Assembly: GCF_000186865.1 (NCBI RefSeq)
Contig: NW_008705566.1
Location: 27,890-91,889, forward strand
Origin: Aureococcus anophagefferens
Lineage: Eukaryota; Sar; Pelagophyceae; Pelagomonadales; Pelagomonadaceae
Direction of reading: 5' to 3'
DNA length: 64,000 nucleotides
Below are positions 6,705-60,962 of this stretch, piece after piece (position 1 is the first letter of the stretch; each line of letters opens with the position of its first letter). A program made the translations under genes and the position numbers. A model generated the notes under the pieces. That model worked only from the letters and a program-made list of their open reading frames with translations, was not told the DNA's origin and ran no database searches.

Positions 6705-7223
6705 ATGTTCCTGAGCCGCGTCGCGACGCGATCCGTGCGGCCGGCGCTGGCCGCCAAGGCCGCGCGGCGGCCCGTGGTGACGAAGACGACGACGGGGCTC
6801 GTCGGGTTAAAGGTCGATCCCGAGGGCCGCGTCAACCTCATCGCGCTCAACGAGGAGCTTTTGGAGGCCGTCAAGGAGGCGCGTCGCCGGCGCCCTTTGC
6901 TTCGACGCCGTCCCGGCGCGACGCCCCGCCCCCGCGCAGATCCCGGCGCACAACGAGTACAGGAAAAGCATCGAGGCGACCGCGGCGTACCGCATCAAAG
7001 TCGCGTCGGCGACGGAGGACGCGCGTCGCCCGGCGCCCGCGGAGCGCGCGCGCGCCTGGACGCCGCGCCCGCGCAGGAGGAGGCCATCGAGGAGGAGATC
7101 GGCATGGGCCAGCTCGAGGAGCTCATCGAGTCGCAGCAGGAGGAGATGGGCGTGCTCAAGATGTACATCGAGCACAAGATGTGGGAGCACATCGACGAGC
7201 TCGCCACGGAGTTCAAGGGCTAG
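6705..7223 (+). CDS. NDUFA5: NADH dehydrogenase (complex I) 1 alpha subcomplex subunit 5
   Basis: Three exons: 6705-6878, 6940-7020 and 7077-7223, giving 133 residues. It is an accessory subunit of the mitochondrial complex I matrix arm. Residues 1-25 are a basic, Ser/Ala-rich mitochondrial presequence (MFLSRVATRSVRPALAAKAA). The family signature follows: TKTTTGLVGLKVDPEGR, LIALNEELLEAVKE at the first junction, IPAHNEYRKSIEATAAYRI in exon 2, and EEEIGMGQLEELIESQQEEM with HKMWEHI in exon 3. With this splicing, the distance from the IP pair to the GQ pair matches the family as I know it. Both introns must then start with GC (GCGCGTCGCC in each), because no GT donor keeps frame and length. An unspliced reading would scramble the middle. 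Confidence 0.88.
   Translation: MFLSRVATRSVRPALAAKAARRPVVTKTTTGLVGLKVDPEGRVNLIALNEELLEAVKEARRRRPLLRRRPGATPRPRADPGAQRVQEKHRGDRGVPHQSRVGDGGRASPGARGARARLDAAPAQEEAIEEEIGMGQLEELIESQQEEMGVLKMYIEHKMWEHIDELATEFKG
6879..6939 (+). other. GC-AG intron 1 of NDUFA5 (61 bases)
   Basis: The donor is GAG|GCGCGTCGCC and the acceptor CCGCGCAG|ATC, phase 0. The nearby GT at 6883 would give the wrong phase. Family spacing supports this junction. Confidence 0.8.
7021..7076 (+). other. GC-AG intron 2 of NDUFA5 (56 bases)
   Basis: The donor is GAC|GCGCGTCGCC, the same ten bases as intron 1. The acceptor is CCGCGCAG|GAG, phase 0. An alternative GT donor at 7000 would remove nine conserved-length residues. Confidence 0.8.
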
Positions 7224-7309
7224 GGAACGCGCCGCCGCCGGTTGACTAACCGCCTAGCTGCGCGCCCGTCGTCGCGGCGGAGTCGGAGAGGGTCCGGGTT
7301 GCAAAATTA

Positions 7310-7984
7310 CTAGCTGCACTTGTCGCCCTTCGCGGTCCGGCCGTCGCCCTCCGCGAAGGCGAACGCGGCCTTGACGGAGGACCAGCCGCCGTCGGGCGTC
7401 GGCGGCCCCGCGGGGTCCTCCTCGTCGACTTCGTCGTCCGAGTCGTCGTCGCCCGCGTCGAGCGACGCCTCGACGCGGTCGCAGAGCGCGAACGCGATGG
7501 CCGACCAGACGTAGACCATGGCGAAGGCCGCGCGGTTCGCCGGCGCGCCGAGGTTCCGCCGCTCCCAGGCCGTGCAGAGGAGGTCGCCGCGGTGGGCGAC
7601 GACCTGCGCGAAGAGGCCCGCCATCGCGATCTGCGAGAGGCGGAGCCACGTCGCGCGGCGGCACAAGCCCTGGAAGACGGCCGTCTCGAGCGTCAGCGAG
7701 AGCAGCGCGCCGCAGAAGACGACGCCGAAGGCGACGAGGCACCGCCGCGCCGCCGGCGCCTCGCCCGCGCAGGCCAGGGCGACGTCGACGCGCGTCGGCG
7801 CGAGCGTCGCGCCCGCGAGCGCGGCCATGGCCATGGACGTCGTCACGTGCAGCGCGCGCACGAGGCTCGACAGGCTCGTGCGCGCCTGCAGCATGAGGTC
7901 GCCGTGGAAATAGCACGCGGCGCTCAGCGCCGCGGCGAGCCACCAGCACAGGAGCGCGGCCGACGCGTGGGCCTCCCCCGCCAT
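7310..7984 (-). CDS. Small multi-pass membrane protein, family unknown
   Basis: 224 residues from the ATG at 7984. Four or five hydrophobic segments are visible: AALLCWWLAAALSAACYF, LHVTTSMAMAALAGATLA, CLVAFGVVFCGALLSLTL, IAMAGLFAQVVAH and FAMVYVWSAIAFALCD. The tail from about residue 175 is acidic and soluble (DAGDDDSDDEVDEEDPAG) and ends TAKGDKCS. No active-site motif or family is recognised. The gene is divergent from the one starting at 8272, with 287 bases between them. Hydropathy supports this strand over the Arg-rich opposite frame. Confidence 0.65.
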   Translation of the reverse strand: MAGEAHASAALLCWWLAAALSAACYFHGDLMLQARTSLSSLVRALHVTTSMAMAALAGATLAPTRVDVALACAGEAPAARRCLVAFGVVFCGALLSLTLETAVFQGLCRRATWLRLSQIAMAGLFAQVVAHRGDLLCTAWERRNLGAPANRAAFAMVYVWSAIAFALCDRVEASLDAGDDDSDDEVDEEDPAGPPTPDGGWSSVKAAFAFAEGDGRTAKGDKCS

Positions 7985-8271
7985 CGTAACCAGCGGTTGC
8001 ACGGCTCGAGCTTCGCGGTCTCGCGGTCGACTTGGCGCTGCTGCAGTACGCCGGTCCAGGACAGCGCTCGACTTGCGGCGGCTGCCGGGCGGGGAGGAGC
8101 TGCCACAGCGGTGTCTGGCGAGCCGCATCTGGGATTTCACAAAAGGTCAACCAACGAGATTTTGGCAGCCCGGCATCCAGCCCGCATCCAGCAGTCCAGT
8201 CGCCTTCGGTGCCGGCGTCGCGAGAAGCCAAGGACCCCCGCGCCCGGCATCCGGTCGCCTTCGACGTCGTC

Positions 8272-10803: not shown

Positions 10804-11061
10804 ACCCGGCGCGGAGGGCCTCTACATAGTTTAAGGGCCTCAACAATGAGTCAACATACCTCCCTCCCCCGGCCAAAGGGCGCTCAGTCGAGCGCGCATC
10901 CCCTTCAATAACTTGGTCAACATAGCCGTTGTCTAAAAAGAAGCTGAACCCAATCGAGTGGTCCTTCGGGGTCGGGGCGCGGCGCCGCGGTGCAGCACAG
11001 AAGTTCTCCTCTCCGGGCTCCGCTGTCCCCCCCCTCGGGGCTGCCCCCGGCGCGTCGCCCC

Positions 11062-12210
11062 ATGGCGCAGCCCGAGGCGCAGAAGTACCGGGGCCTGGAG
11101 GCGACGCCGAACATCTTCGCCGCGACGAAGGAGAAGGACGCGTCCCTCCAGGAGGAGCAGGCCTTCTTCGCGCAGATGGAGAAGTTCTCGGAGCGGCCCA
11201 TGATCAGCATCGAGGTCGACCGCGAGTCGAGCAGCTTCGCCGTCGTCGGCGCCCTGCCGGCGCAGCCCAGGTCCGCGCCGGCGGCGGACCGGCGGCGGCC
11301 GTCGCCGTCGCCGCCGTCGCGGAGCCTCCTCGTGCCCCCGCGCCGGTCCAGCGGGCGCGAGTCGCCCGTCGGCGTCGGCGAGACCGTCCCGCGCAGCAGC
11401 GCGACCTACGACCCGGGGACGGACACGGACGACTCGCCGCGGCTGTGGCGGCCGCCGAAGAAGGGCAAGGGCCTCTTCTCCCGCAAGCCCCGGCCCGACG
11501 CCGGCGCCGCCGCCCCGGCGGGCGCGCGGGCCTGGTCGCCGCCGCCGGCGCCGCGGCCCGGGGCCGCGCCAGGGAGGCGGCCGCCCGCGCTCGAGTCCGT
11601 CCGGAGCCGGGCCGCGGCGCCGCCGCGGCCCAGGGCGCGGTCCTCGTCGGCGCCGCCGACGCAGGCGTCGCCGGGCGAGGTCGTCTTCCGCGCCGACGCC
11701 GCGGGCGCGACGGACCACGGCGAAATGCTGCCCGCGCTCGCCGACGACGGCGCGGTGTCGACGTGTGGCCACGGCGGCCTCGGGCTGGGCCTCCGGTGCG
11801 AGCGCGGCGACGCGCTGTCGCGCATCGGCGCCACGGCCCACGGCGTCGAGATCTCCGGCTCGGCGCCGAACCGGCAGGCGTCGGACTTCGACGCGATCTT
11901 CGCCGCCGTCGACGCCGCGGACGCGATCGAGCCCGCGGGGCGGAGCCACCGCCCGGCGCCGCACCGCGACAGCAGCGACGTCGCCTGCGGCTGCATGGGC
12001 TCCTGGGGCGAAAACATCGCCTACGACGACGGCTGCGCGGACGTCGGCTGCGCGGGCGACGCGTGGAGCGACGGCGACGAGGCCGCGCTCTCGACGTCGC
12101 CGGACACGTACCTCGGCTCCGTCCTCGCCTACCTCAGCATGACGCCCGCGACCTGCGCCGGCGACCAGAGGTACTACGAGACCGACGACGAGGTCGGCCT
12201 CACGGACTGA
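11062..12210 (+). CDS. Unknown Ser/Pro/Arg-rich protein
   Basis: 382 residues from ATG 11062. An in-frame ATG at 10990 would add 24 Pro/Arg-rich residues. The N-terminus (QKYRGLEATPNIFAATKEKD, then EEQAFFAQMEKF) looks structured and helical. Residues about 60-220 are Pro/Arg/Ser-rich and probably disordered. The C-terminal 150 residues are acidic and contain several Cys/Gly segments (STCGHGGLGLGLRCERGD, DVACGCMGSWGENIAYDDG) and end LSMTPATCAGDQRYYETDDE. I recognise no family. It is supported by a long frame with non-random composition, but evidence for function is absent. Confidence 0.5.
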   Translation: MAQPEAQKYRGLEATPNIFAATKEKDASLQEEQAFFAQMEKFSERPMISIEVDRESSSFAVVGALPAQPRSAPAADRRRPSPSPPSRSLLVPPRRSSGRESPVGVGETVPRSSATYDPGTDTDDSPRLWRPPKKGKGLFSRKPRPDAGAAAPAGARAWSPPPAPRPGAAPGRRPPALESVRSRAAAPPRPRARSSSAPPTQASPGEVVFRADAAGATDHGEMLPALADDGAVSTCGHGGLGLGLRCERGDALSRIGATAHGVEISGSAPNRQASDFDAIFAAVDAADAIEPAGRSHRPAPHRDSSDVACGCMGSWGENIAYDDGCADVGCAGDAWSDGDEAALSTSPDTYLGSVLAYLSMTPATCAGDQRYYETDDEVGLTD

Positions 12211-12306
12211 CGGGGCCGGCGTTCCGAGGTCGGAGCCTAAGTTGAAGTTTAACATATCTATAGCCCAGCCGGCGGGGTGTGTGGGCCCGGGGAAGATTCC
12301 GGGGGC

Positions 12307-13456: not shown

Positions 13457-15048
13457 ATGAAGAACATTTCTCTCGAATCTTCGGCCGACCCGGAGGCGCG
13501 GGCCCGCCGCTTCCCCGAGCCGGCGGGCGCGCCGCACGCGCTCGTGTCCCCGGAGAGCTCGGCACGACGGATAAACAACGAAACGCCGGCGGCCGACGAG
13601 GGCGAGCGCGCGGCGGCGGCCGCGGCGGAAGAAACGGCCGGACCGGACGCGGGCGCCGCGCCGCGGGAGTTTTCCGACGGCGCGCCGTCCGGCTCGCCGT
13701 CGCCCGAGGAGCCCGGGACGCCCCGGGGGTCCGACGCCGAGGACGACGCGCTGGCCGCGGCGACCGCGGCCGTGGACCTCGGCGGCGGCGCCTACGAGGC
13801 CGGCGGCGCCGAGGCCGGCGGCGACGAGGTCTACGGCGACGACCCCGACGGCTTCAGCCCGTCGTCGCCGCAGATGGGCGCCGGCGGCCTCGCCTACCTC
13901 CAGAACTGGGGGCCCGGCGGGCCCCTGGGCATGCACGACGCGAGCCTCGGCCCCGAGCAGCTCGAGACCGTGCACTGCCCCCAGGCGCTCGTGGGCCGCC
14001 TCATCGGCAAGCAGGGCGACACGATCAAGGACCTGCAGCGGCGGTCCGGCGCGCGCATCCAGATCGACCAGAACTTCCCCGAGGGCACGCCGCGCGTCGT
14101 CACCGTCGAGGGGAGCGCGCAGTGCGTCGCGCTCGGCGTCCAGCTCGTGCGGTCCCTCATCGGCAACTCGCCGGCCGTGGGCAACGGCAACCCGGGCAAG
14201 ATGACGACCTTCGAGTGCCCCAAGGCCCTCGTGGGCCGCGTCATCGGCAAGGGCGGCGAGACGATCAACGAGCTCCAGCGCCGGTCCGGCGCGCGCATCC
14301 AGATCGAGCAGCGCGTGCCCGAGGGGGCGCCCTGCATCATCGAGGCGCGCCGCGGCGTCTGCGGATGTTCGTCGCGGCTTCATTGCTCGTCGTCTCGGCG
14401 GCCTCCGCGCGCGCGCGCGCGGCGGTGTCGCGGGATCGCGCGCGCGCCCGTCCGCAGGTCCAGGGCAGCGACGCCGCCGTCGAGGAGGCGCGGCGCCTCA
14501 CGCACGACGTCATGGGGGGCAAGCGCCTCGAGCCCTTCGCCGGCGGCGACGCCTACTACGGCCCGGGCGCGCCGCCGGGCGCCGGCTACGGCATCCCGCC
14601 GTACCTCGTGCCCCAGACCGGCGGCGTCGACTTCGCCGGCGGCCTCGCCCAGTACAGCCGCGCCGCGCGCCTCGAGAACGAGAAGCTCGCGACGAAGGCG
14701 CGGCTCCGCGGCGTCCCGCGCGCGCCGCCGCGCGCGCCGACGCGCGCCGACCCGCAGGCCGACGGCCGCGCGCCGAGCGGCGGCGTGCTCTACCCGCCGC
14801 CCGGCGCCTACGGCGTGCCGCCCTACGCCTACGCCTACGGCGGCGGCGCGCCCTACGCCTACGCGCCCTACTACGCGCGCGGCGGCCTCGTGCCCGGCGC
14901 CTACGGCGGCCCGCCGCCGCCGCCGCCGGCGCAGGCCGTCACGCCCGACGGGTGGACGAGCCACGTCGACGGCCAGGGCCGCCAGTACTGGCACCACGCG
15001 ACGAGCGGCCAGAGCTCCTGGGACGCGCCCCCGAGCCAGTCGCCCTGA
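13457..15048 (+). CDS. KH-KH-WW RNA-binding protein
   Basis: Exons 13457-14344 and 14458-15048, 492 residues. An upstream in-frame ATG at 13343 would add 38 residues. The first 165 residues are acidic and disordered. KH1 (about 175-235) has VGRLIGKQGDTIKDLQRRSG, with the GxxG loop GKQG, and ends RVVTVEGSAQCV. KH2 (about 255-315) has VGRVIGKGGETINELQRRSG (GKGG) and ends across the splice junction as CIIE|VQGSDAAVEEA, exactly the spacing of KH1. A Tyr/Pro/Gly-rich region (YGVPPYAYAYGGGAPYAYAP) precedes a C-terminal WW domain (DGWTSHVDGQGRQYWHHATS, then SSWDAPP). It probably acts in pre-mRNA binding or splicing, with the WW domain contacting Pro-rich partners. A paralogue of FUBP/SF1-like proteins is possible. 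Confidence 0.88.
14345..14457 (+). other. GC-AG intron in the KH gene (113 bases)
   Basis: The donor is ATCGAG|GCGCGCCGCG and the acceptor GTCCGCAG|GTC, phase 0. It joins KH2 at exactly the length of KH1. A GT donor 15 bases downstream (GTCTGCGG) is also in phase, but would insert four residues (ARRG) into the last KH strand. Confidence 0.75.
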
Positions 15049-15146: not shown

Positions 15147-18100
15147 TTACAGGTTCGGCATGTAGCCCTCGAGCTCGACGTCGTAGGTGAAGCTCTCGGG
15201 GGACCCCTTGAGGTGGACCTTGGCGACGGTCTTGATCCAGCGGCCGACGTCGAGGCCGTTGCCCGCCTGGGCCTCGGGCGGCGTGAAGGTGAAGGCGACG
15301 GGCGCCGTGCCGCCCGCGGGCACCGTGCCCTTGTCCGGGCTCGCGGCGAAGTAGCCCGCGGCCTTGGTCGCGGCGTCGAGCTCGACCTCGAAGGTGCCGT
15401 TGGACCCGAGGCTCGCGGGCTTCTTCGGTGCGCGGGGCCCGCCGTCGGGCGCGTCGGCGGCGCAGCAGCCCACGAGCACGGACGCGGACGCGGCGCGGTC
15501 GCCGTCGTCGCCGCCGTCGTCGGCCTTGGGCCGGTCCGCGACGCGCGGGAAGCGGATGGCGATCTTCGGGTTCACGGGCGGGCCCAGGCCCATCATGTCC
15601 CGCACCTCGGCCGCGGCGTCGTCGAGCTCCGCCGGCAGCCCGAAGGGGTCCTCGAAGGCCGCGCCGAGGCTCAGCGGCCGGTCGTCCGCGACGACGTACA
15701 TCTGGTGGTCGTGGCAGCGGCCGAGCACCGTGAGCACGTGGCGCTTGTCCTCGTTGGGCACCTCGACGCGCAGCTTCTGGTAGTAGGCCCAGACGCGGCC
15801 GTGGTCCGGCCGGAACTTGATCTTCACGGCGAGCGTCGCGCCCGGCGCGACCTGGGCAGCACAAGAGTGATTCAAGTTCGCTTCAACGTGAGTGTGCCGC
15901 GCGCGCGCGTTCCGGAAAAAGCATCCACGCTTCGAGACCGTTCCGAGAGATGATCGCTCGTCCAAAAATCAGCCAAAACGAGTGGAAAACGGCCGAGATC
16001 GGAGCCTTTGAAGTTGGGAATTTCGCTCTCTTTTGCTGCCCCGGGCGCGACCGTCGCCTCGGACGGCACGCACACGAAGGGCGCGGACGCGTCGCGGTTC
16101 TCGCGCGGCACGGGCTCGCCCAGGGGCGTGAGGCAGAAGGACAGCGGGAACACGGACGTGTTGTGCAGCAGCAGCTCCTTCGTCCGCGCGCAACCCACAA
16201 ACACGTGGCCCATGTCGACGAAGCCGTCCGGCGGGTCGAGCTCCAGCGTCGGCGACACGCCCTCGCCGCGCAGGGCGACGCGCACCGTGCGGCCCAGCGC
16301 CGGGCAGACCAGCTCCAGGTGCTCGGACCGCACGCCGCGCGCCGTCGGCGCGAACTGGAGCAGCGCCGAGTGCGGCGGCGCTTTCGGGTGGAGCGGCCGG
16401 AGCGCGTTGACCATCATGAAGGGCCCGACGCCGTTGAGGCCCGGCACGGCCTTGACCTCGAGGGGCGGGCCGTCGGCCGCGAGGTTCCGCAGGCGGAGCG
16501 GCAGCGTCGACGTCTGGCCGACGGCGAGCTGCCCGAAGTCGATCTTCTCGCAGTCGCACCAGAACGTGCGCTCCACCGTCGTCGTCTGCACCTCGAGGAA
16601 GAGGGGCGGCGGCGGCTCCGCCGCCGACGACTGCACGTAGCAGGGGATCTTCCAGACCGCGTGCTCGCTCCACGGCTCCCGCGCGTCGCGGTCGCTCTTG
16701 GGAGGCCCGCCGTAGCCGTCGAGGCCCTTGACGCCGTGGACGCTCACGGTGAGCGTGCCCTCGAAGGGCTCCGGCGGCGTCGTCGCCGCGGCGTAGGCCG
16801 CGTCCCGGGCGGCCTTGAGCTCCGCGTCCCTCGCCCGCTTCGCGGCCGCGGCGGCCTCCCGCGCGTCGTCGTCGGGCTCCGGCTCGGGCTCCGCGTCGTC
16901 CGGCGGCGGCGGCGGCGCGTGGCCGAAGACGGCGTCGAGGTCCCGCGCCTTGGGCTGGACGTTGGCGTCCCGGAGGCTCGGCGTGTCCCGGGGCCCCTTG
17001 GACCGCGGCGGCGCGAACGAGATTTCCACGCGGCGCGTCTCGCCCGGCGCGACCGTCGCGACCGCGGGCTGCACGGTCAGGAAGCTCAGCAGGGGCTTGG
17101 GGACGACGAGTTCGAAGGTCCGCGGCGCCGCCTCGCGCTTCGCGCCGGGCGCCGACGGGTGCGACACGAGGACCGACGCGACGACGCGGTCGCCCGGCGA
17201 CGCGGGCGGGAACTTGAGCACGGTGAAGGAGAACTTGAGCGCCGGCTCCAGCCCCCGGCCCCGCACCTTGATGGCGTAGGTGTTGTTCATCGTCGTGCGC
17301 ATGGTCAGGTTGAGGTCGACGTTGACCGCGGACACGGGCTTGAAGATGACGTCCACGGTCCGCGACTCGCGCGGCAGGAGCACGCCGAAGCCGTCGTTGG
17401 GCTGGACGTCGACCTCGGCGCTGAGGTTGACGAAGCCGAACTTCTGGGGGAGCGCCGACTCGTTCGTGAGCACGACGGGCGCGCTCAGAGCTTCCGTGAC
17501 GTAGCACGGCCCGTAGTCGAGCGCGGTCGTCGAGAAGGACACGTCGGACCGCGTGAGCTGGGCCCGCAGCGTGTAGTAGACGGGGAGGGCCTGGTCCGGC
17601 ACCATGATCCGCATGGGCACCGCGATGATGCCCCGGTCCTTGATGCAGTAGGGCGCGCAGCGGTCGACGACGGCCGGCGTCGGCCGGAACTTGATCGACA
17701 TCTCAAAGTCCGCGCCCGGCTGCACGAAGCCCATGTCCGGCTGGTACTCGAAGAACTCGCGGAACTCCTTGGGCGCCCGCGCGATGGCCTTGAAGGCGAT
17801 CTTGCCCCGGTTCCGCAGCATGAGCTTCTTCCGGTAGAGTTTGCCGTAGACGGCGCAGCGCATGTCGACGACGGGCTCCGCGACGTAGATGGGCACCTCG
17901 ATGGACGACCCGATGATGCTCAGCGGGATGGTCTCGGCGAAGCCCTCGAAGCGGATGGCCACCTGCTCCCGCGCGTAGCCCGCGCGGAGCGGCGCGAACT
18001 TGATCACGTGCGCGACCTCGGCGTAGCCCGCGACCTCGCCGCCGTTCGCGTACTGGATGGGCCCGAGGCCGTCGGCGTACTTGAGCGCCGCCGCGCCGAC

Positions 18101-20578
18101 GGACGCGGCCTGGTCCAGCAGGGCGCGCTCCCTGGCGTCGTCGTCGTCGTCGCCGTCGTCGTCGAGCGACGCGTCGTCCTCGGGCGCCGCGGCGTCCGCG
18201 GCCGCGGGCGCGGGCGACGCCGCGCCGCCGCGCGGGCTCTTGCCGCCGGGCGTCGCCGGCCGGGACACGATGCCCGCGGGCGCGCCCGTCTTCGGGTCGA
18301 AGAACTCGAACTTCGTGGGCAGCGCGCCCTGGTTCTTGATGATCAACGAGAACGTCGACGTCTCGCCCATGACGACGTTGTCGAACTGGACGTGGGGGTC
18401 CGAGATCGACGGCACGACCTTTTTTTTCGTGCAGACGATGGGCACGGAGAAGGGCCCCGTCGCCGCGAGGAGGGGGAGCTCGTCGAAGATGTCCTCGTCG
18501 ACCTGGGGCGTGAACGTGACGTCGATGACGCAGGACGTGCCCGCGGACATGCGGCCGGGCTTGACGTAGGACACGTCGAAGAAGTCGACGATGGCGTCGC
18601 CGAGGGGCAGCACCTTGAAGTTGTTGAAGGACAGCGACACGTTCGTGAGCGTGATCTTCCGGTGGTGGCTCTCGCCGACGGCGAAGTCCTTGAACTCGAT
18701 GCGCGTGGGCTCGGCGACGAAGGCCGCGGACCGCAGCGTGCGGCCCGCGATGATCTGGGGCGCGCCGGAGGCGAGGCGGTCCTTCTGGCGCCGCTGCGCG
18801 CGCGCGAGGCAGTCGCGCTCGAATTTCGAGAGCTCCGAGCCGTGCTTCCGCGGCGCCTTGGCGGCCTCGGCCTCGTCGCCGGCGCCGGCCTGGGCGACCT
18901 CGCCCGCGAGCTTGGCCTGGGACGCGTTCAGCGCCTCGCCCGGCGGCGCCTCGTCGGGGGGCAGCAGGCCCTGGAGCGTCTTCAGCGCGCCGCCGCCGCC
19001 GTCGCCGCCGTCGTCCTTCTTCTTCCGCGCGACGCTCGAGTCGTCGACGCTGCGGAGCTTGGGGATCAAACGCCCGAACTCGCCCAGGTCCTCGGCGACG
19101 GTCTCGTTCGCCGGGAGCTTCGCCAGGTCGCGGATGAGCTCGCGGCGCTGCGCCTCCGTCTTCCGCGAGTTCTTGCCCGTCCCAAAGGTGTGGTCCAGGA
19201 TCTTCGTCTCCTGCGAGGGGAACATGGGCACGGTGGACCGGCCCGTCGGGTCCACGAGGCTCTTGCCCGTGCGGCTCAGCAGGTACTCCATCGTCCGCGC
19301 CTCCGTGAAGTTGCGGCCGAGCGCGTCGCGGTGCGCCTTTTCCAAAGCCGCCGCGTGGGCCTCGTGGGCCTCGATCTTGCGCTGGCGCGCGTCGTCGACG
19401 GCGATGCGCTCGATGACGGCGCGGCGCTTCGCCTCGATCTTCGCGTGCGCGGCGGCCGCGCGCGTCCGCGCCTCGTCCTCGACCTCGCGGCGCCGGAAGA
19501 CCTCGTAGGGGTTCTCGCCCCGCGCCTCCAAGCGCGCCTTCTCCCGGGCGAACTCGTCGCGCTTCGCCTGCTTGCGCATGGCCGCCTTCTCGTTGCGGCC
19601 CCGGAGCTCGACCGTCGCCGCGTCCGTGTCCGCCTTGAGCTGGAGCACGGCTTCCGCGCGGTCCTCGCGCTCCGCGCGCCGCGCGTCCTCGCAGTGGGCG
19701 CGCACCTCGCGCGTCACGGCGCCGCTCCGCGCCACGCGCCGCTTCGCCTTCGTGCGGCCCTCGACGGCCGCGCGCGCCTTGCGGTCGTCGAGCGCTTGTT
19801 TTTCCGCGCGCCGCGTCCGCGCGGCGTCGAGGCGGCCCTCGTGGGCCCGCACGCGCCGCTCCGCGCCGGCGATCTCGAGGTCCACGGTCTCCCGCGCCTT
19901 GAGCGCCGCGGCCTCGAGCTTCTCCGCCTTGGCCGCCTTGGCCTTGAGCGCCTTCTCCGCGAGGGCGGCGCACGACCGCTCCGTGCGCTGCGCGACGTGC
20001 TCCGCGACGCGCTCCGCGTCGCGCTCCCGCGCCGCCGTCGCCCGCTGGCGTTGAGCGGCGGCGTCGGCGCCCAGGGCCGCGCGCTTCGCGTCCGCGAGCG
20101 CCGCGAGCTCCGCCTTGGACAGCGAGCTCCGGCCGAGCGGGTGCGCGTTCGCCGCGGCCTCGAGCTCCCGGTAGACCCGGGCGGCCTCGCCGGCGAGCCG
20201 GTCCTGCTGCACGGCCCGCGTCAGCTCCTGGTCCGCGACGAGCGCCGCCTCGTCCGCGGCCTTGCGCGTCGCCGCGCGCTCGCCCGTCGCGCCGTCGAGC
20301 TCGCGCACCATCTTCACGAGCTCCTTGTCGCTCATGGCGCGGAAGCGCGCCGTCGCGAGCGTCGCCAGCGTCTTCTGCGTGCCGCCGGAGGCCACCGTCT
20401 CCTCCGCCGGCGACCCGAGCGCCTCGCCGTCCTCGTCGTAGCCGGCGAAGAGGTCGCCGTACTTCGACTCCAGGGCGCCGTCCATGGGACCGTCGAAAAA
20501 TTCGCCCGCGTGCGTCTCGTATTTCGCCTCGTCGTAGGCGCCCGTCTCGCCCAGCTCGTCGGCGCGGCCGGCCATCAT
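15147..20578 (-). CDS. Coiled-coil plus ASH/MSP-repeat ciliary protein (CFAP74/HYDIN-like)
   Basis: Exons 20578-16052 and 15851-15147 give 1,743 residues. Residues about 60-560 are highly charged coiled coil (Ala/Arg/Glu/Lys). From about 640 on there are repeated immunoglobulin-like ASH/MSP modules, e.g. FKDFAVGESHHRKITLTNVS, VVMGETSTFSLIIKNQGALP, FGQLAVGQTSTLPLRLRNLA and DMGHVFVGCARTKELLLHNT. Each carries the (V/L)GxxxxxxxxLxN pattern. This order is typical of axonemal central-apparatus proteins; CFAP74 and HYDIN are the closest I know, and CFAP74 fits best by size, but I cannot settle the name. The intron at 15852-16051 is an introner element; splicing restores SEATVAPGATLAVKIKFRP. The start MMAGRADEL is chosen because upstream codons overlap the neighbour's promoter. 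Confidence 0.78.
15852..16043. mobile_element. Introner-like element, ~200-bp group, inside the ciliary gene
   Basis: 192 bases flanked by a perfect 8-base duplication (GGCGCGAC on the plus strand, 15844-15851 and 16044-16051). Ends are imperfect inverted repeats (CTGGGCAGCACAAGAG / CTCTTTTGCTGCCCCG). On the gene strand the donor is the GT of the upstream duplication copy (GTCGCGCC) and the acceptor is the element end (CTGCCCAG). The intron is therefore 15852-16051, phase 0, and its removal restores one copy. It contains TCGTCCAAAAATCAGCC, shared with the two VWA8 elements, but otherwise is a diverged member. Confidence 0.85.
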
Positions 20579-27200: not shown

Positions 27201-29007
27201 CGCCGGCGGCGGCCTTCGTGCGATCTGCATAGAGGTTGGGCGAGGCGAAGGCTGAATAGCGCGATTCGACATCATTGACACCAAGATCGAAGCCAAATTG
27301 CGACTTGACGGGGGCGGCCGTGGCGGCGCGGCCCCCCGTCGGCGCCGCGTCGACGGCCTCGGCGGCGACGTCCCTCAGCGGCGCGACGTCGACGCCCGCG
27401 GCCTCGCAGTCGCCCATGAAGTCGAGGAGCGTCTTGCAGATCGCCGCGGTGCCGCCGGCGACGTCGGACTCGAGCTGGACAGACACGAGGGGCTCGTGGA
27501 GCGACGCGCGCGCGATGATCCAGTCGTTGCCGATGCTGCAGCGGAGGCCGTCGTGGTTCACGGGCTCGACGGCCCAGGCGTCGACGGCGCCCGCCGCGGC
27601 CCGGAGCGCGGCGCAGAGCGCCTCCTCGGCCGCGGGCACCGCGGCGAGCGACGCGACCTTCATCTTGACCTTGATCGACTCCGCGGGCTCCGCGAGGCCG
27701 TCGCCGAGCACGTCCAGCAGGCCCGCGTCCGGCCGCGCCTCCTCGCGGCGGAACCGCGCGAGGCGGCCCAGCAGCTTCGCCGCCGTGTAGCAGCCGTCGT
27801 CGACGAAGGCGTTGTCTTTCCACGCGCTGTGGCCCGACGTCTCGATGGCCAGGAGCGCGGGCTCGGGCTTCGTGTCCGCGGCCCGGTCGATGACGTTGCG
27901 GTAGCCCATCTTGTAGCGGTCGTGGACGCCGCCGCGCGCCTCGATGAAGTCGCGCATGCCCCCCGACGTCACGGGGTCCGTCACGATGACGCCCGCGTCG
28001 CGCTCCAGCGCCACGGCCGCGCAGAGCGCCACGAGGCGGTTCTGGTGCACGGGCTCCGGGGGGCTCCGCCAGCATGACGCCGACGTCGGCGCCGGAGGAC
28101 GCGACGGCCTCCGCCGTCGCGGCGACGTGCGCCTTGTCCTCGGGATTCGCCGGGTGCGCGGGGAAGGTGCCGTCGGGGTCCAGATGGACGCTGCTCGACA
28201 CGTCGGCGCCGAGCGGTTTCAGGACCTTGGTCGCGAAGAAGCCGCCGGCGCCGTTGCCCGCGTTGACGCAGATCTTGAAGCCCGCGAGCGGTTTCGCGTC
28301 CCCCCCGCCGGCGACGTCGATGATGGTCCGGCGGAGCTTGTCCACGTAGGGGTCCATGAAGCGGTAGGCTTCTTTGCGCCCGCTGAAGCCCGCGGCGGCG
28401 CGCCACGCGTCCTCGGCCGTCGGCGCCTCGTCGGGCCGCGCGCCGGCCGCGGCGGCGGCCTCCGCGGCGGCCATGACCTCCTTGACCTCGCGCTTGTTCA
28501 GGCCGCGGCCGAGCTCCTTCGAGAAGAACTTCAGGCCGTTGTACTCCGGCGGGAGGTGGCTCGCCGTCACCATGACGGAGCCGCAGGCCTCGCCGTCGCC
28601 GAGGAGCGTCTCGAGCATGGCCGGCGTCGTCGCCGCGCCGGCGTCGACGCCCCGGGACCCCTCGACGAAGGACTCGGCGATGGCCTCGCTCGTGAGGCGC
28701 GGGTCGCGGCCGACGGCGACGGGCTTGTCGGACCTGCGACGGGTTTTGGATGTTGCTTCGAAGTGTGGCTGTCGCAGGACGCGGCGCCGCGCCCGAGCCA
28801 GGCGCGGAAGCCGGCGCCGATCCAGTAGACGCTCTCCGGCGCGAGGGCCACTCGGCCTGACAGATCTGCCGCGGCGTCGGCGACGCCGCGCACGTCGTCG
28901 CCGGCCGCCTGTGTCAGCGCTCGAATGGCATCAAGCTTCGGCGGCGGCGTCAGTGCAACGGCAAGCGTCGCGAGAGCAGCGACGAGCGCTGGAATTGATG
29001 CGCGCAT
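21265..29007 (-). CDS. Phosphoglucomutase-like enzyme continuous with a ~2,000-residue repeat tail
   Basis: The start is ATG 29007. Residues 1-20 form a signal peptide (SIPALVAALATLAVALTPPP), suggesting a plastid enzyme. Exon 1 ends near 28793; exon 2 begins at 28733 with SDKPVAVGRDPRLTSEA. The active-site serine loop VMVTASHLPPEYNGLKFF is intact, and the sugar-binding region GVIVTDPVTSGGMRDF...AIETSGHSAWKDNAFVDDG matches the plastid phosphoglucomutase-like family of plants. The Mg loop (DxDxDR) is absent: the frame shifts between about 28075 and 28050 exactly where it should be. After the C-terminal domain (VEPVNHDGLRCSIGNDWII) the same frame runs open for about 6 kb of repeats (DETPDKPAGEGFMDHF, SSGTPDWLGAAP). 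It ends TLFDFIGECEAAGVDTAPLK, a near copy of the mutase tail TLLDFMGDCEAAGVDVAPLR. The gene could be one fusion or a mutase and a repeat gene merged. Confidence 0.68.
21800..27200 (-). repeat. Large coding tandem/interspersed repeat array
   Basis: Units of roughly 40-75 residues alternate two modules: DETPDKPAGEGFMDHFSS with (A/S)GSFKGKDRDFK, and SSGTPDWLGAAPxASPA. They are separated by Pro/Ala linkers (RPPPPRAPAA) and occasional ADQAERRAAWLSG units. Copies differ by a few bases, so they are old enough to diverge. All six frames are open over long stretches because of the composition. The minus frame is preferred because it is continuous with the mutase domain and ends in a copy of its C-terminus. 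Confidence 0.85.
28734..28792 (-). other. Intron 1 of the phosphoglucomutase-like gene, donor ambiguous
   Basis: Joining CTCGG to GTCCGAC gives AWLGSDKPVAVGRDPRL, with a GC donor (GCGCGGCG) and 59 bases. A GT donor at 28780 (GTCCTGCG) is also in phase, leaves RGAA in the protein, and gives a 47-base intron. The acceptor is CGTCGCAG in both cases. Confidence 0.6.
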
Positions 29008-42035: not shown

Positions 42036-43651
42036 ATGTCGCACGGCCGCACCGCTGATTTCTTGGAACATCTTCTTCCAAAGCGCCAGGAAATCGACGC
42101 GTACGTCAATCGCCTGGATGATGGCGAAGGCGAATCTGTGCTGGTCCTGGAGCACCTCGGAGAAGGTGACCGCCGCGACCTGCGACAGTACCTGAAAAAG
42201 CGCCACGGCAAGGTGCAGCACTGGACCGTCGGCGACAATTTGCACATCGCGCCGCCGCGAGAGGTCGACCTCGCGGGCTTCGTGCGCCCCGAGGAAGCGC
42301 GCTCGGACGAGGACGCGGCGCCGCGGCGCCCGGGCCCGCCGGGCCCCCGCCGCGTGCGCGTCGTGTCGTTCAACATCCCCATGGGCGTGTCCTTGGACAG
42401 TCATCCCATCAGCTGGCGCCACCGCGTCGACTGCGCGGCGGCGCAGCTCGCGCGGCTCGACTGCTCGGTGGCCGGCCTCCAGGAGGTCCGCGGCGCGAAG
42501 CTCTTCGAGTTGCTCCAGCGCATCCCGCGCCTCAAGTGCGCGACGAACCCGCACTGCTTCCAGCCCATCGTCTACGACCCGAGCGTGGCGCGGCCCCTCG
42601 AGTGGGGGCGGCTCGTGCTCTCGGACCGGCCGATCTGGAAGTACGAGTGCACCTGCGGCACGCAGTACGCGTCGTCGTGCAAGTGCGGCGAGCGCTGGGC
42701 CGAGGGCGCGCCGCGCTGGGTCGGCGGCGCGACGACGTGGTGCGCCTTCGAGCTCGCCGACGCGGACGTCCGCTTCGTCGTCGTCAACAGCCACGTGTCG
42801 CAGCAGTCGCCGGAGGTCCGCGCCAGCGTCGAGCGACGGGAGTGTTTTTTCGCGCAAGTCTCGCCGGGAAACGAGAAGACATCCGACCCTGTCACCCTTG
42901 GTAGGTCCGCGCGCGGGCCGTCCGCGAGGTCCTCGCGCCGCTCGTGCGGGCCCTCGGCAAGCGCTACGGGCGCCGCGTTCCAGTCATTTGCACGGGCGAC
43001 TTCAACGCGGCCAAGGACCAGAGCGGCGAGCAGAGCAACAAGACCGCCGACGCGTCCGGCACGGGCGAGCACGCGGCCCTCTGCGGCATCCGCGGCGCCC
43101 GCGGCTCGAACAGCGACTACAGGACCGCATTGAGGGAGTGGCTCGCGCGCGAGCGGCGCCGCGTCGCCCGGGGCCAGGTCCGCCTCGCGCGCGGCCGCCC
43201 GGGCCGCGGCCGCGGCGACGGCTACGACTCCACCGACGACGAGTTTTACGACTTCGTGTTGGAGCACCCCTGCGTCGACACGTGGGACGTCGCGCGGAAG
43301 CCGCCGACGGCGAACGGCTGCTTCGCGTCGACGTGCCATCAGATGAAGGGCCTCCGCGCCGACCAGCAGCACGCGGTCGCGGGAACGCAGGGCGTCGGCG
43401 CGAACCGCGTCTACTGCGACGAGAACCACAGCGGCAGGTCCACGAAGAGGCAGAAGTTGACGTACGGCTCGGACCGCTACATCGACTGGATCCTCGTGTC
43501 GTCGCCCGCCTTCGTCGAGGGCACGGCCGCGGTCCTCGACGCGGAGGTCCACACGAAGCAGTGCGCGGCCTGGTCCGCTTACAACCACACGCGCTACGGC
43601 TCCGACCACTACCCCGTCTCCGTCGACTTCGAGCTCCACCCGAACCAGTAA
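42036..43651 (+). CDS. Endonuclease/exonuclease/phosphatase-family enzyme with N-terminal R3H-like domain
   Basis: Exons 42036-42815 and 42905-43651, 508 residues. ATGs at 41946 and 41976 are alternative starts. Residues about 5-75 (DFLEHLLPKRQEIDAYVNRL...LRQYLKKRHGKVQHWTVG) resemble an R3H single-stranded nucleic-acid-binding domain. The catalytic fold follows with VRVVSFNIPMG (metal Asn), VAGLQEVRG (metal Glu), FVVVNSHVSQQSPE, VICTGDFNAAKDQ (Asp and Asn), YIDWILVSS and the terminal GSDHYPVSVDF (Asp-His pair). All expected metal and catalytic positions are present. It could cleave RNA ends or a phosphoester metabolite. A Cys cluster (CTCGTQYASSCKCGE) is inserted in the fold. The intron is an introner element. 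The stop at 43651 is one base from the convergent stop at 43653. Confidence 0.85.
42824..42904 (+). mobile_element. Introner-like element, ~80-bp group, in the EEP gene
   Basis: 81 bases (CAGCGTCGAGCG...CACCCTTGGTAG) flanked by a perfect 8-base duplication GTCCGCGC (42816-42823 and 42905-42912). Donor is the GT that begins the first copy; acceptor is TTGGTAG. The intron is 42816-42904 (89 bases, phase 0) and removal gives QQSPEVRARAVREVLAPL. It shares CAGCGTC, CCGGGAAA and TTGGTAG, and nearly the same length, with the element at 37162. Confidence 0.85.
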
Positions 43652-54987: not shown

Positions 54988-54989
54988 GG

Positions 54990-55199: not shown

Positions 55200-58100
55200 A
55201 TGCTGCCCGGCGAGTACCGCGTCAAGGCGCCCGGCGCGCTCGTGCGCGCCGGCATCGAGCAGTCGTCGGCGCGCGTGACGGAGCTCGCGACGGATGCGGC
55301 GCTCGTCGTCGAGGAGGTGAAGCTCAACGGCCGCGGCGTGGCGCGCGCGCGCGTCAGCCAGCCCGTGGAGGGCTGGCTGAGCTGCAAGTGCGTCGTCGGC
55401 GGCGAGATGCTCGCGGCCGCGGCGCCTCCCGCGCCCGCGCCGCCGCCGCCGCCGAAGGCGCCGGCGCCGCCGCCGCGACCGCGACCGCCGCCGGAGGCGC
55501 GCGCCGCGCCGCCGGCGCCCGTGGCGACGGAGGTGTCGTCGGACGCGGGCGTCGTGTCCATCGGCGGCGTGTCCCTCTCCGTGGCGCGCGACTTTGACGC
55601 GGCGCTCGTGCCCGCGCCGCCGCCGCTGCGCGGCTGCGGCTTCGAGTTCTCGCGCGAGGCCGCGGCGACGCTGCAGTGGATGCTCCGCAAGGCGGCGCTG
55701 AGGCAGGACATGTTCCTCCTCGGCGACGCGGGCCCCCGCTGCCGCCAGCTCGCCCTCGCCTTCTGCGAGCTCGCGCGGCGCGAGGCCGAGTTCGTGTCCC
55801 TCACGCGCGACAGCAACGAGAGCGACCTGAAGCAGCGCCGCGAGCTCCGGGGCGGCGACCTCGCCTGGGCGGACCAGCCGCCCGTCGCCGCGGCGAAGCG
55901 CGGCCGCGTGCTCATCCTCGAGGGCGTCGAGAAGGCGGAGCGCAACGTGTTGCCGCTGCTGAACAATTTGCTGGAGAACCGCGAGATGGCGCTCGAGGAC
56001 GGCACGTTCCTGACGCCGCGCGCGAATGCCGGCGACGCGCGGCTCGCGCGCGTCCACGACGACTTCCTCGTCGTCGCCATCGGGCGGCCGGCGGCGCGCT
56101 ACGCGCGGCGGAAGGACGACGACGCCGTCGCGCCGCTGGCTGTGTGGAAATCAACCACTGGTTTCGGTGGTCCTGACCAAACTTGAGAATTCTCTAGCTC
56201 GGTCAAATCGAAGTCGATTCGGCTGATTTTTGGACGAATCGATTGCTCTCGTCGAGTTCTCGAAGCACAGGAGAGAGTCTCGCGTCGAAACTGTCGCATA
56301 CGCTCACATTGAAGTCGGGTTGAAGATTTGGTTTCCACACAGGCCGCTCGACCCGCCGCTGCGGAGCCGCTTCGTGTCGCGGCGCGTCGGCGGGCTGGCG
56401 CCGTCGGAGGACGCGGCGTGCCTCGCGGCGCTCGGCGTGGACGACGGCCCCACGCGGGACGCGCTCGCCAGGTTCTGCGCCGGCGCGCGCGCGCTCTCGG
56501 ACGCGTCCGCGGCGGAGGACGGCGCCGTCGCGGCGCCGCGGTTCCCCGAGGGCGGCGGCCTCTCGGTCGGCGCGCTTCTCGTCGCGTTCCCCGGCGCGCC
56601 CTTCTACGGCTTCGCGGGCCGCGCCTTCCCCGCCGCGGCGCTGGCCCTCGACAAGGCCGCGGAGAAGGCGCTCCGCGATCTCGGCGGCGCGGTCGAGGCC
56701 GCGCGCGCGCGCGCGGCGGGCGCCGCGCGCCGCGACTACGCGCTCGTCGGGGCCAGCAAGACGTCGCGGCGCGCGTGCCGGCTCGTCTTCCGCGCGGGCG
56801 CCGACGAGGTCGTCCTGGAGACGGCCTGCGGGCCCGGCGCCGTCGCGGCCGCCGCGGCCGCCGACGCCGCCGACGCCGGCGCGGCCGCGGACGACGACGG
56901 CGTCGACGCGCTGAGCGTCAAGGAGCTCAAGCGGCGCCTCGACGCCGCGGGCGCGCGCTACGCCGACTGCCGCGAGAAGGCCGAGCTCCGCGCGCGGCTC
57001 CGGTCCGCGTCCGGCGCCGCGCCGGCGGCCGGCGACGCGCGGACCGCGGGCGCGGCGCCCGCGGCGCCGGCGACGTGCCCGGACCTGCCGCTGACGCCGT
57101 CGCAGCGCGTCGCGGTGACGGCCGTCGTCCAGGACTTGGCGTGCTGCCGGGGCGTGGGCGCCTGCGTCGTCGGCGAGCGCGGCTGCGGCAAGTCGGCGAT
57201 TTTGCGGGCGGCCTGCGCGGCGCTCGGCTACGGGCCCGGCCGCGCGCGCTACGTCTTCTGCCACCGCGAGCTCAGCGCGCGGGAGCTGCTCCAGCGCCGG
57301 GGCGCGGAGAAGGGCCGGACGTCGTGGCGCGACGGCGCCGTCGTCGCGGCGGCGATCCGGGGGGACGTCGCGGTGCTCGACGGCGTCCACCGCCTCGCGC
57401 CGGGCGTCCTCGCGGGCAGCCTCGGGCGGCTCATCTGCGACGGCGAGGCCCAGCTCCCGGACGGCCGGCGCCTCGTGCGCGCGGACGACTGGGACCGGCT
57501 CGCGGCCGCGTTCTCCGCCGAGGAGCTCGAGGCCAAGGGGCTGGTGAAGGTGCGGCGCGGGTTCCGCGTCGTCGCCGCGGCGGAGCCGCCGCCGTGCTTC
57601 GACGCCGCGGCGCTCGCCGGGCGGCCGAAGGGGCCCGCGGCGCGCCGGGGCAGCGGGTGGCTCACGGACGAGGTGCTGGGCCTCTTCCACTTCCACGTCG
57701 TCGCCGCGGTCGCCGGCGACGAGGCGCGGACGCTGCTCGAGGCCGCGGCGCCGCGCCACGGCGGCTCCGACGCGGGCCGCCGCGCGTGCGGCGCCGTCGT
57801 GCGCTTCGGCGAATTGCTGGCGCGCGCGGACGACGAGCACCTCCGGGGGCTCCGCGTGTCCGCGCGGCAGCTCGCGCGGCTCGGCAAGCGGCTCGACGCG
57901 GCGGCGACCCTCGACGGCGCCGCGGCGAAGCGCGCCATCGACGGCGCCTTCGCCGCGCGCCTGCGCTTCGCGCCCCGCGACGCGCGCGCGGCCGCCGACG
58001 GCCTCGCGGACCGCGCGCTCCGCGAGCACGGGTTGCGGGGCGCGGGCGCGGCGGCCGCGGCGCCGCGGCAAGGAGCTCGAGGACGCGGCGATCCACGTGT

Positions 58101-60962
58101 CGCGCCGGCGCGGCGCGCCTCCGCGGAGCGCGCGCGACGCTCCGACCCCTCGCAGGCGCGGACGGCGGCCATGTACGGCGACGCGCGCGGCGCCGCCGAC
58201 GCCGGCGCGCGCGTGGACCGGGCCGTCGAGGACCGGCGGCGCCGCGGCGCCGCGGACGCGCGCGACGAGCGCGGCGCGGCCCGCGCCGAGGGCCTCCGGG
58301 TCCTGCGCGCCGCGAGCGCCGCGGAGCCCCGGCGCGGCGACGCCGCGGCCGTCGTCGGCGGCGCCCTGCGCGTGACCTCGTCCCTGCGGAGCGGCGGGCC
58401 CGTCGACGTCGCGCGGCGATCCGCGGCGGACGCGTCGCTCGTGCCGCGCGTCGCCGACTTCTACCCGACGCCGGAGCACGTCGGCGTGCTCCACGACATG
58501 GCCCGCGACTGGAACGTGCCGCGGGAGCCCCTGCTCCTCGTCGGGAACCAGGGCGTGGGCAAGAACATGCTCGTCGACCGCTTTCTGGAGCTGCTCGACG
58601 CGGAGCGCGCGCCGGCGCCTTCCCGGGGGGAGAATTGTCGATCGTCGCGCGCCTTCACAGGCGCGAGTACGTCCAGCTGCACCGCGACACGACCGTCGCG
58701 TCGCTCACGGCGGCCCTGGACCTGAGCGACGGCGCGCTCACGGCGCGCGACACGCCCCTCGTCCGCGCGGCGCGCCTCGGCCGCGTCCTCGTCGTCGACG
58801 AGGCGGACAAGGCGCCGCTGGAGGTCGTCTGCGTGCTCAAGGCCCTCGCCGAGGACGGCGAGCTCGCGCTGGCCGACGGCCGCACGCTGTCGCGCGCGCG
58901 CGGCGCGGCGGCGGCCGGCGGCGACGTCGACGGGTCGTCGACGGACGACGACGACGACGACGTCGCGCGTCGGCGTCCCGTTTTTGCGCCTAGTGAACGG
59001 GCGGCGCAGGTCGTCTTCGTGCACGACGACTTCCGGCTCATCGTGCTCGCGAACCGGCCGGGCTTCCCCTTCCTCGGCAACGACTTCTACCGCGAGTGCG
59101 GCGACGTCTTCGCGTGCCACGCGGTCGAGTCCCGTGTGGAAAGCAAATCTTCAACCCGAATTCAAGGAGAGTTCATCGAAAGGATTGGACCAGTCTCGCC
59201 AACCGTGCTTTCGGAACTCGACGAGAGCCATCGATTCGTCCAAAAATCAGCCGGATCGACTTCGATTTGACCGAGCTCGAGAATTTTGACGTTTGGCCCC
59301 GACGTCCCAGCTCACTGGTTGATTTGCACACAGGTCGAGTCGTGCGCCTACGAGAGCGAGCTGCGGCTGCTGCGCGCGGCGGCGCCGCGCGCGCCGGCGG
59401 AGGCGCTCGTCGACGCGTCGCTGCTCTGGCGCGACCTCCGCGGCCTCGTCGACGAGGGGCGGCTGAGCTACCCGTACAGCACGCGCGTCCCCGGCGTCGA
59501 TGCGCCTCCGCCGTCCGGGGGGGACGCGGCGCTCGTAGGCGCGAGCTCGTCAAGGTCGCCAAGCACCTCGACGCGTACCCGGGCGACGGCCTCGCCGCGG
59601 CCTGCGCCGACGTCTTCGCCTTCGACGGCTTCGACGCGCGGCTCGCGACGCTCCTCGCGACGGTGCTCGAGGGCCACGGCGTCGACGCCGACGAGGCCCT
59701 CGGCGGCGGCCAGAGCTACGGCGACATGACCCTGAAGCTCCCGGAGGGCTTCAAGACGATCAAGCGGCCGGGCGCGCCCGCGGGCATGCCCAGCGACGGG
59801 CCGAAGCACGGCGCCTGGGACGACGAGGCCCACATGGGCGGCAACATGTTCGCCGGCGGCAGCGGCGGCAGCGGCACGGCGGGCCTCGGCGGCCGCGGCG
59901 GGCCCTACCGCCTCGACGTCGGCCAGCAGCTCGGCCACATGACGCAGCAGGAGAAGGACGCCGTCGACGACGCGAGCCTCGCGGCGGCCAAGGACATGGC
60001 GACGAAGGCCCACGCGAAGAAGCTCGAGGAGCTGGGCTTCGGCCCCGCCGAGGCGTCGGCCTACGAGGCCGCGCGCGACGCCGTGCTCCTGGGCGCCACG
60101 GAGCTCCGGGCCGCGCTGCTGGACCGGGAGAAGCGCGACCGGGAGCGCGTCTGGAAGACGCGGCAGACCGTCGGCGAGCTCGACGACAACCTGCTCGTGG
60201 ACGGCGTCGCCGGCGAACGCGGGGTCTACCGCCGCCGCGTCGCGCCCGACGGCGCCGACGACGACGACGACGCGGACCGGCCCGCGCCGACGTCGAAGCA
60301 CGGCGAGACGCGGGACCCGATCCGCCTCCGCTTCGTCTTCGACTGCTCGGGCTCCATGTACACCTTCAACCGCATCGACCGGCGCCTCGAGCGCCTCCAG
60401 CAGATCGCGCTTTTCGTCTTCGAGGCGCTCGACGGCCTCGACGACGACTACGACTATTCGGTGGTGGCGCACTCGGGCAACGGCCCCGAGGCCGAGCTCT
60501 TCGTGCCCTGGGGGCCGGGCGGGAAGCCCAAGAGTCCCAAGGAGCGCTGGGCCGTCTGCCAGCGCATGGCGGCCCACGCCCAGTACTGCTCGCCGGGCGA
60601 CCACACGCGCGTGCCCGTGTCTGAAATTCTGTGGAATACGATCACAGTCGCGTTTTAGGCTCGACGGCACCGCGGCCGCGATCCGCGACGTCGCCAAGGG
60701 CCGCGCCGACGAGCGCTTCGTCTTCCTCATCTCCGACGCGGACCTGAAGCGCTACGGCATCGACGCCGCCAACTGGAACGCCATCATCATGAAGGACCCG
60801 AAGGTCCAGGCCTTCGTGCTGCTCATCTCGTCCAACGACGACGAGGCCGCGGAGATCCAGGCCAAGATCCACCCGGGCCGCGCCGTGACCTGCTTCGACA
60901 CGGCGAACCTCCCGACGGCCTTCAAGGAGATCTTCGCGGCGCGGGTCTTGAAGCTGAGTTAA
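55200..60962 (+). CDS. VWA8: von Willebrand factor A domain-containing protein 8 (AAA+ ATPase)
   Basis: Exons 55200-56131, 56343-58604, 58661-59123, 59334-59482, 59539-60606 and 60659-60962, about 1,725 residues. VWA8 is a mitochondrial dynein-related AAA+ ATPase. An SH3-like N-terminus precedes AAA module 1 (LLENREMALEDGTFLTP; PLDPPLRSRF). A SAP-like segment (LSVKELKRRLDAAGARYADC), then a Walker A GERGCGKSAI with VAVLDGVHRL follow. The third module is canonical: LLVGNQGVGKN, REYVQLHRDTT, RVLVVDEADKAPLEVVCVLK, FRLIVLANRPGFPFLGNDFY and LSYPYSTRELVKVAKHLD. The C-terminal VWA domain has FVFDCSGSMYTFNR (MIDAS DxSxS), YDYSVVAHSGNG and FVFLISDADLKRYGI. The long central propeller-like part of animal VWA8 is absent. 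Around 58040-58140 the family peptide KELEDAAIHV lies in another frame. Confidence 0.88.
56140..56342 (-). mobile_element. Introner-like element, ~200-bp group, VWA8 copy 1 (inverted)
   Basis: 203 bases with inverted ends CTGTGTGGAAA / TTTCCACACAG. Flanks GCCGCTGG (56132-56139) and GCCGCTCG (56343-56350) match at 7 of 8 bases. The acceptor is CCACACAG. A donor at the GC of the first flank gives precise excision (VAPLDPPLRSRF). A GT inside the element end (56144, GTGGAAAT) is also in phase and leaves VAPLAVPLDPP. Read on the minus strand it is a close copy of the element at 59132, so it sits in the opposite orientation within the same gene. Confidence 0.85.
58605..58660 (+). other. GC-AG intron in VWA8 (56 bases)
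   Basis: Donor GCGGA|GCGCGCGCC, acceptor CCTTCACAG|GCGCGAGT, phase 2. It joins LLDAE to REYVQLHRDTT, the family order. No GT lies in a usable position. GCGCG is repeated at both boundaries. Confidence 0.85.
59132..59333 (+). mobile_element. Introner-like element, ~200-bp group, VWA8 copy 2
   Basis: 202 bases (CCGTGTGGAAAGCAAATC ... GTTGATTTGCACACAG) flanked by a perfect 8-base duplication GTCGAGTC (59124-59131 and 59334-59341). The donor is the GT of the first copy, the acceptor is CACACAG. The intron is 59124-59333 (210 bases, phase 0); removal gives CHAVESCAYESEL, as in the family. It contains GATTCGTCCAAAAATCAGCC and CGACTTCGATTTGACCGAGC, both shared with copy 1. Confidence 0.88.
59483..59538 (+). 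other. GC-AG intron in VWA8 (56 bases)
   Basis: Donor AGCAC|GCGCGTCCCC, acceptor GCTCGTAG|GCGCGAGC, phase 2. It joins YPYST to RELVKVAKHL, the family order. The GT four bases later is out of phase. GCGCG is repeated at both boundaries. Confidence 0.85.
60607..60658 (+). other. GC-AG intron in VWA8 (52 bases)
   Basis: Donor CACAC|GCGCGTGCCC, acceptor GCGTTTTAG|GCTCGACG, phase 2. It joins SPGDHT to LDGTAAAIRDV, the family order. Both nearby GT dinucleotides are out of phase. Confidence 0.83.

Follow-up and report, generated by a model that had tools for sequence, protein, structure and literature searches.

The window, a stretch of 64,000 nucleotides (nt) of Aureococcus anophagefferens DNA (contig NW_008705566.1, positions 27,890 to 91,889), carries genes for NDUFA5, a KH protein and VWA8, in which six introns with a GC donor and an AG acceptor had been predicted. 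The sequence had the GC donors at all six sites, reading GCGCGC at 14345 and 58605 and GCGCGT at the other four, each paired with a downstream AG, and five of the six lengths fell within the expected 52 to 61 nt (Table 1). Judging from the sequence, all six are real GC-AG introns: three appear to be backed by spliced copies, which brought in one further intron of the same kind, and the other three by homology, bearing out the original prediction of genuine GC-AG splicing. The best explanation, which we consider very probable, is that these are U2-type GC-donor introns removed by a spliceosome that tolerates G followed by either pyrimidine. Boundaries were tested with a script that enumerated placements leaving the same mRNA within 12 nt and in-frame GC/GT...AG pairs within 30 nt. 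No GT...AG placement with an unchanged mRNA was found at any of the six junctions by this enumeration. Wherever an in-frame GT alternative existed within 30 nt, its use altered one or more residues of the protein; 58605 had none.

The protein P0121 (133 residues, source 'lgn', 6 contigs, the longest of 2131 nt) was identical in 133 of 133 residues to NDUFA5 without both introns. When NDUFA5 was joined at both GC donors, 67 residues covered positions 1-67 of the 67 in the Pfam profile PF04716, and no gap occurred at either join against NDUFA5 chains of the PDB (3 alignments among 22 matches). For the KH protein, P0150 (472 residues, 'lgn', 1677-nt contig) matched the window protein spliced at the GC donor 14345 in 471 of 472 residues; once both introns of this gene were removed, the only difference was D327V. 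P0150 lacked exactly the 20 codons of 14698-14757, revealing a seventh GC-AG intron that was outside the original list. This intron is stop-free, in frame, a multiple of three in length and 92% GC; six placements of it gave the same protein and only one had GC...AG ends. Among the placements tried that yielded the P0121 and P0150 proteins, the GC...AG one alone had GC/GT...AG ends. A GT donor at 14357 had been expected to insert four residues into the KH protein, and those residues were missing from P0150; the Pfam KH_1 score fell from 125.5 bits with the GC donor to 113.7 bits with the GT donor. The 'lgn' contigs were taken as complementary DNA (cDNA) because two unrelated genes each lose exactly their introns; we infer that this source consists of assembled public reads.

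The intron at 14345 was mis-handled in all three public KH models seen. These NCBI A. anophagefferens models (P0151, P0154 and P0155) were near-identical to the window over long stretches. P0151, with its first 89 residues identical to the window KH protein, read beyond the donor and continued in a different frame; P0154 retained the intron, and P0155 mis-joined there, losing about 10 conserved residues.

The VWA8 joins LLDAE/REYVQ, YPYST/RELV and GDHT/LDGT (a slash marks the join) were gapless against all eight homologues aligned (P0001-P0005, P0020, P0043 and P0056, 8 among the 120 listed). The best A. anophagefferens match, P0005, covered 41% of the query at 53% identity and looks like a paralogue of the window VWA8. 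This speaks slightly against assigning the DNA to A. anophagefferens or a very close strain, but is outweighed by the KH and NDUFA5 matches. Two further VWA8 introns were left out of every count: 58060-58155 was dropped as a test intron as its surrounding sequence was unconserved, and 58962-59009 was dropped as a GC test as a GT donor at 58962 fits. Set against these results, a reading without GC-AG introns here, in which the sequences are translated or retained or GT donors are used, is highly improbable. Both NDUFA5 introns together do leave an open read-through of 172 residues, represented by P0122 (source 'ena', 25 contigs, 170 of 172 residues like the window), and the second KH intron can be translated throughout. 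However, exactly these stretches are missing from P0121 and P0150, neither protein results from any GT placement found, and at the joins of NDUFA5 and VWA8 the homologues carry no residues.

Table 1. GC-AG introns and element-like introns of the window (window positions; a slash marks an exon-intron boundary)
Feature	Position	Strand	Length and sequence	Support
NDUFA5 intron 1, GC-AG	6879..6939	+	61 nt, GAG/GCGCGT...CGCAG/ATC	P0121, PDB alignments
NDUFA5 intron 2, GC-AG	7021..7076	+	56 nt, GAC/GCGCGT...CGCAG/GAG	P0121, PDB alignments
KH-protein intron 1, GC-AG	14345..14457	+	113 nt, GAG/GCGCGC...CGCAG/GTC	P0150, Pfam KH_1 score
KH-protein intron 2, GC-AG	14698..14757	+	60 nt, AAG/GCGCGG...CGCAG/GCC	P0150
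VWA8 intron, GC-AG	58605..58660	+	56 nt, GCGCGC...ACAG	homologue alignment, GT enumeration
VWA8 intron, GC-AG	59483..59538	+	56 nt, GCGCGT...GTAG	homologue alignment
VWA8 intron, GC-AG	60607..60658	+	52 nt, GCGCGT...TTAG	homologue alignment
Family-1 introner as VWA8 intron	56132..56342	+	211 nt; donor GC = start of target duplication GCCGCTGG/GCCGCTCG	
Diverged family-1 introner as VWA8 intron	59124..59333	+	210 nt; target duplication GTCGAGTC, donor GT	
Second-family introner, in predicted CFAP74-like gene	15852..16051	-	200 nt; target duplication GTCGCGCC, donor GT	
Short element-like predicted intron	42816..42904	+	89 nt; GTCCGCGC, an exact 8-bp repeat, at the donor and again after CTTGGTAG	

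All seven short introns start with GC and end with AG, as expected of U2-type GC-AG introns. The U12-type donor is RTATCC, and none of the seven matched it; all begin GCGCG. GC-AG introns of mammals and plants likewise combine a GC donor and an AG acceptor with the U2 machinery, but they are rare and keep a strong AG/GCAAGT context, whereas here neither the exon side nor position +4 fits: the exons before the seven donors end in GAG, GAC, GAG, AAG, GGA, CAC and CAC, and +4 is C in 7 of 7. The AG/GCAAGT context, absent at all seven donors, is a consensus of mammals and plants that is typical, not defining, for Aureococcus.

Introner elements of A. anophagefferens were reportedly described by Huff et al. 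in 2016. Two of the VWA8 introns are such elements, with target duplications matching at 7 of 8 and 8 of 8 bases. The element at 56132-56342 has the terminal inverted repeats CTGTGTGGAAA...TTTCCACACAG; the terminal repeats of 59124-59333 have diverged and its ends were placed by eye, and this intron was gapless against VWA8 homologues. At least two introner families were observed, with ends CCACACAG and CTGCCCAG, lengths of about 211 and 200 nt, and target duplications of 8 base pairs (bp) in both; the ends of the second family resemble CTGGGCAG...CTGCCCAG. A terminal inverted repeat was looked for at 42816-42904 and none was found. At another locus (L039), predicted element-like introns also end in CTTGGTAG and have exact 8-bp repeats.

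Across the 49.05-Mb genome, 957 family-1 ends were found, and reversed-pattern controls occurred 1 and 4 times. Base 1 of the target duplication was G at 634 ends and another base at 323, and 347 of the 634 duplications began GC. Elements were sampled from the fully listed part of the matches (C1, C2, and C3 to 1,332,858), which held 154 ends from 110 elements; both ends were present in 44, with identical duplications in 37 of these. Exons and coding strands for comparison were sampled with a self-trained coding hidden Markov model (HMM), which served this purpose only. At least one orientation placed GC or GT at the would-be donor in 109 of the 110 introners, compared with 37.1% of predicted-exon 8-mers; 83 elements qualified in one orientation only, 26 in both and 1 in none. 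A symmetric transposase preference would mark both ends, in contrast to the excess of elements qualifying in one orientation.

The 83 one-orientation donors comprised 43 GC and 40 GT, against a GC:GT background of 3.0:1 in exon 8-mers (chi-square P = 9e-7), which puts the acceptance of GC at about 0.36 of the GT rate per available site. Positions +3 to +6 were background-like in both the GC and GT groups (eight tests, P = 0.33-0.87). When introners of both families were located by script in the fetched loci, 13 of 13 lay between predicted coding flanks, with donors on the predicted coding strand reading GC in 7 and GT in 6; the strand is less sure at locus L018, where the gene model looks out of frame, and the count covers introners with a recognisable duplication, decayed ends or duplications being uncounted. 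G followed by a pyrimidine seems to suffice as the sole detectable requirement at introner donors, as anticipated in the suggestion of relaxed 5' splice-site recognition.

The unusually high GC frequency that had been proposed, seen here as 43 GC and 40 GT introner donors, is also published for the species: in the available text of the 2011 survey by Iwata and Gotoh, GC-AG accounts for 39.6% of A. anophagefferens introns and 1.3% across 61 species (PMC3033335). The abundance of GC-AG introns in A. anophagefferens is already known since that year, and their origin was called an enigma there (PMC3033335). The survey resembles our findings in species, in the GC...AG ends, in their very high frequency and in a putative U1 that is canonical, and differs in that two kinds of donor are not described in its available text (PMC3033335). 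Introner families with up to 50% GC 5' splice sites are reported in the accessible part of Gozashti et al. 2022 (PMC9860276). Several example families given there likewise carry one splice site and take the other from the target, whereas in its Aureococcus example both splice sites belong to the element and 12 bases are added; in the introners studied here the donor came from the target and nothing was added (PMC9860276). The known A. anophagefferens introners share with those studied here a DNA-transposon origin and an 8-bp target duplication, and their length is given as about 210 bp in the available text of the Pelagomonas paper (PMC9481584).

The prediction of a single donor motif held for the seven short introns and failed for the introners. 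GCGCG was present in 7 of 7 supported short introns and, among the GC donors of introners, in 5 of 43 (Fisher P = 8e-6; P = 7e-4 for the four introns backed by spliced copies alone). As 8.9% of the GC sites of predicted exons read GCGCG, its occurrence in six of six introns is not explained by composition alone; these six were chosen in the original prediction, perhaps partly by motif, and the seventh (14698) was not. Tentatively, Aureococcus might have two kinds of 5' splice site, introners needing G plus a pyrimidine, and older introns of about 50-115 nt having a fixed GCGCG core. An additional step, relying on a U1 protein, on a modified U1 or on U6 pairing at +5, would then read this motif, with which canonical U1 cannot fully pair. 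The available main text of the 2011 survey contains no GCGCG (PMC3033335). No paper combining GCGCG, splice site and Aureococcus was among the matches listed; most subscription journals lay outside the search, so no claim of novelty is made.

A general GCGCG consensus received no support from a 323-kb sample, which was counted as evidence against it: a GCGCG candidate was found in 13 of 32 predicted introns, with 10.5 expected, and the motif fit to these introns gave a log-likelihood ratio of 17.2, compared with a null of 12.3 (standard deviation 3.4, maximum 22.0, 40 runs). This test rests on an HMM shown to be unable to separate donors from non-donors, and the sample left out L001, L002, L015, L027 and pieces shorter than 1500 bases. 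The HMM was rejected as an assumption-free donor learner, having drifted and called many doubtful introns. Its gain was 3383 for the GC-type pentamer GCGCC and 3388 for the equally abundant non-donor GG pentamer GGCGC, and it often favoured the wrong donor at known junctions (58605 scored 0.06 and 60607 scored 0.02). In five sampled genes, no domain was able to decide a donor.

It is doubtful that the short GCGCG introns descend from introners that have shrunk with age, with a donor derived from the target duplication and a motif that mirrors just a GC-rich target. Two introner families, at least, are common in the genome, and in two VWA8 introns the GCGCG of the donor recurs just past the acceptor, with 6 of 8 bases matching in each. 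However, the matches between the donor and post-acceptor 8-mers (1, 2, 3, 2, 6, 6 and 4 of 8 in the seven introns) came to 24 of 56, no more than in shuffled pairings (permutation P = 0.95), and GCGCG stood at just 9-12% of GC sites or of the GC donors of introners. Unlike the introners, the short introns have no terminal repeats, the family-1 repeat CTGTGTGGAAA...CACAG being absent from the ends of all seven, and a target duplication not beyond chance.

It is unlikely that a special class of short introns is spliced by a dedicated altered U1, or U1-like, small nuclear RNA (snRNA) pairing with GCGCG. The motif contrast between short introns and introners would fit it, as would the failure to find a U1 with a canonical 5' end in the assembly. 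Against it, the introner GC donors have no such motif, the 323-kb sample was close to expectation, and no altered U1 turned up with the patterns tried. The adapted U1 of the original prediction was unsupported, a putative A. anophagefferens U1 with the canonical 5' end AUACUUACCUG being reported in the available text of the 2011 survey (PMC3033335).

Inspection of the U1 5' end had been proposed; no U1 gene was found in the assembly, part of which is N, by an Rfam U1 search, exact ATACTTACCTG, or stem-loop and Sm-site patterns. By cmscan, no U1 was detected in 10 pattern-selected loci, 11 of 28 further places or another 3; the remaining 17 of the 28 were examined as matched letters only. Exact ATACTTACCTG occurred at only two places in the assembly, L001 1501-1511 and L002 1501-1511, both cmscan-negative and both reading CAGGTAAGTAT on the opposite strand. 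That strand forms perfect canonical donors, CAG/GTAAGTAT, and these sites are not U1 genes; their surroundings are AT-richer (58.3 and 47.6% GC). The same tool did find U6 (one match) and U2 (three matches), and the U6 keeps the canonical ACAGAGA. U1 may be missing from the assembly or too diverged for the searches used, and the missing match speaks neither for nor against an altered U1.

Compared with the usual GURAGU, GCGCGU keeps G at +1, a purine at +3 and G at +5, with U at +6 in 4 of 7 introns, and differs at +2 and +4. By established pairing rules, canonical U1 on GCGCGU pairs at +1, +5 and +6, with a wobble at +3. Tolerant canonical machinery is the simplest reading because GCGCGU keeps +1, the +3 purine and +5 and because U6 keeps ACAGAGA. 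The GC donors would belong to U2-type spliceosomal introns, the spliceosome taking G and then C or T at the 5' splice site. A canonical U1, as put forward in the literature, would tolerate mismatches at +2 and +4, leaving pairing at +1, +5, in four of seven introns +6, and a wobble at +3. In a genome of about 70% GC, this acceptance of GC (about 0.36 of GT per site), multiplied by the factor by which GC outnumbers GT in exons, would generate many GC-AG introns. Introners with a donor taken from the target duplication would be one major source of them.

Four points weigh against this explanation. The GCGCG core in 7 of 7 short introns exceeds what a need for any G plus pyrimidine would demand, which is suggestive. 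No U1 was found in the assembly, so that the U1 5' end is taken from the literature. The spliced copies come from assembled 'lgn' contigs whose cDNA status is itself deduced. Lastly, the exon background and coding strands depend on a self-trained HMM that calls doubtful introns.

Two other genes of the window were also observed. In a phosphomannomutase-like gene at 27700-28930 (- strand), domain III lies in a different frame from domains I and II, the two frames meeting at a run of CCCCCC, and the segment between domains II and III, which should presumably hold the metal-binding loop, is apparently missing; an assembly error, a pseudogene and an odd enzyme are the alternatives. This gene (~27.7-28.9 kb) was dropped as a donor test, an intron ending near 28734 fitting, as judged by eye, either a GT donor (GTCCTG) or a GC donor (GCGCGG). 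A CFAP74-like flagellar protein with Pfam Ig-CFAP74 domains is encoded at 15969-20575 (- strand), in a species that we take to be non-motile.

To the known abundance of GC-AG introns, this analysis adds the spliced copies, the seventh intron and a measure of donor tolerance. GC-rich introns free of stop codons, like that at 14698-14757, escape a reading based on open reading frames and are taken as coding sequence, and further A. anophagefferens proteins may carry the same kind of mis-annotation. The target duplications of introners amount to a natural selection experiment, in which the transposon brings the acceptor and the gene supplies the donor 8-mers. The persisting copies suggest what the spliceosome of A. 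anophagefferens accepts: GC or GT, in 109 of 110 elements, and nothing measurable beyond.

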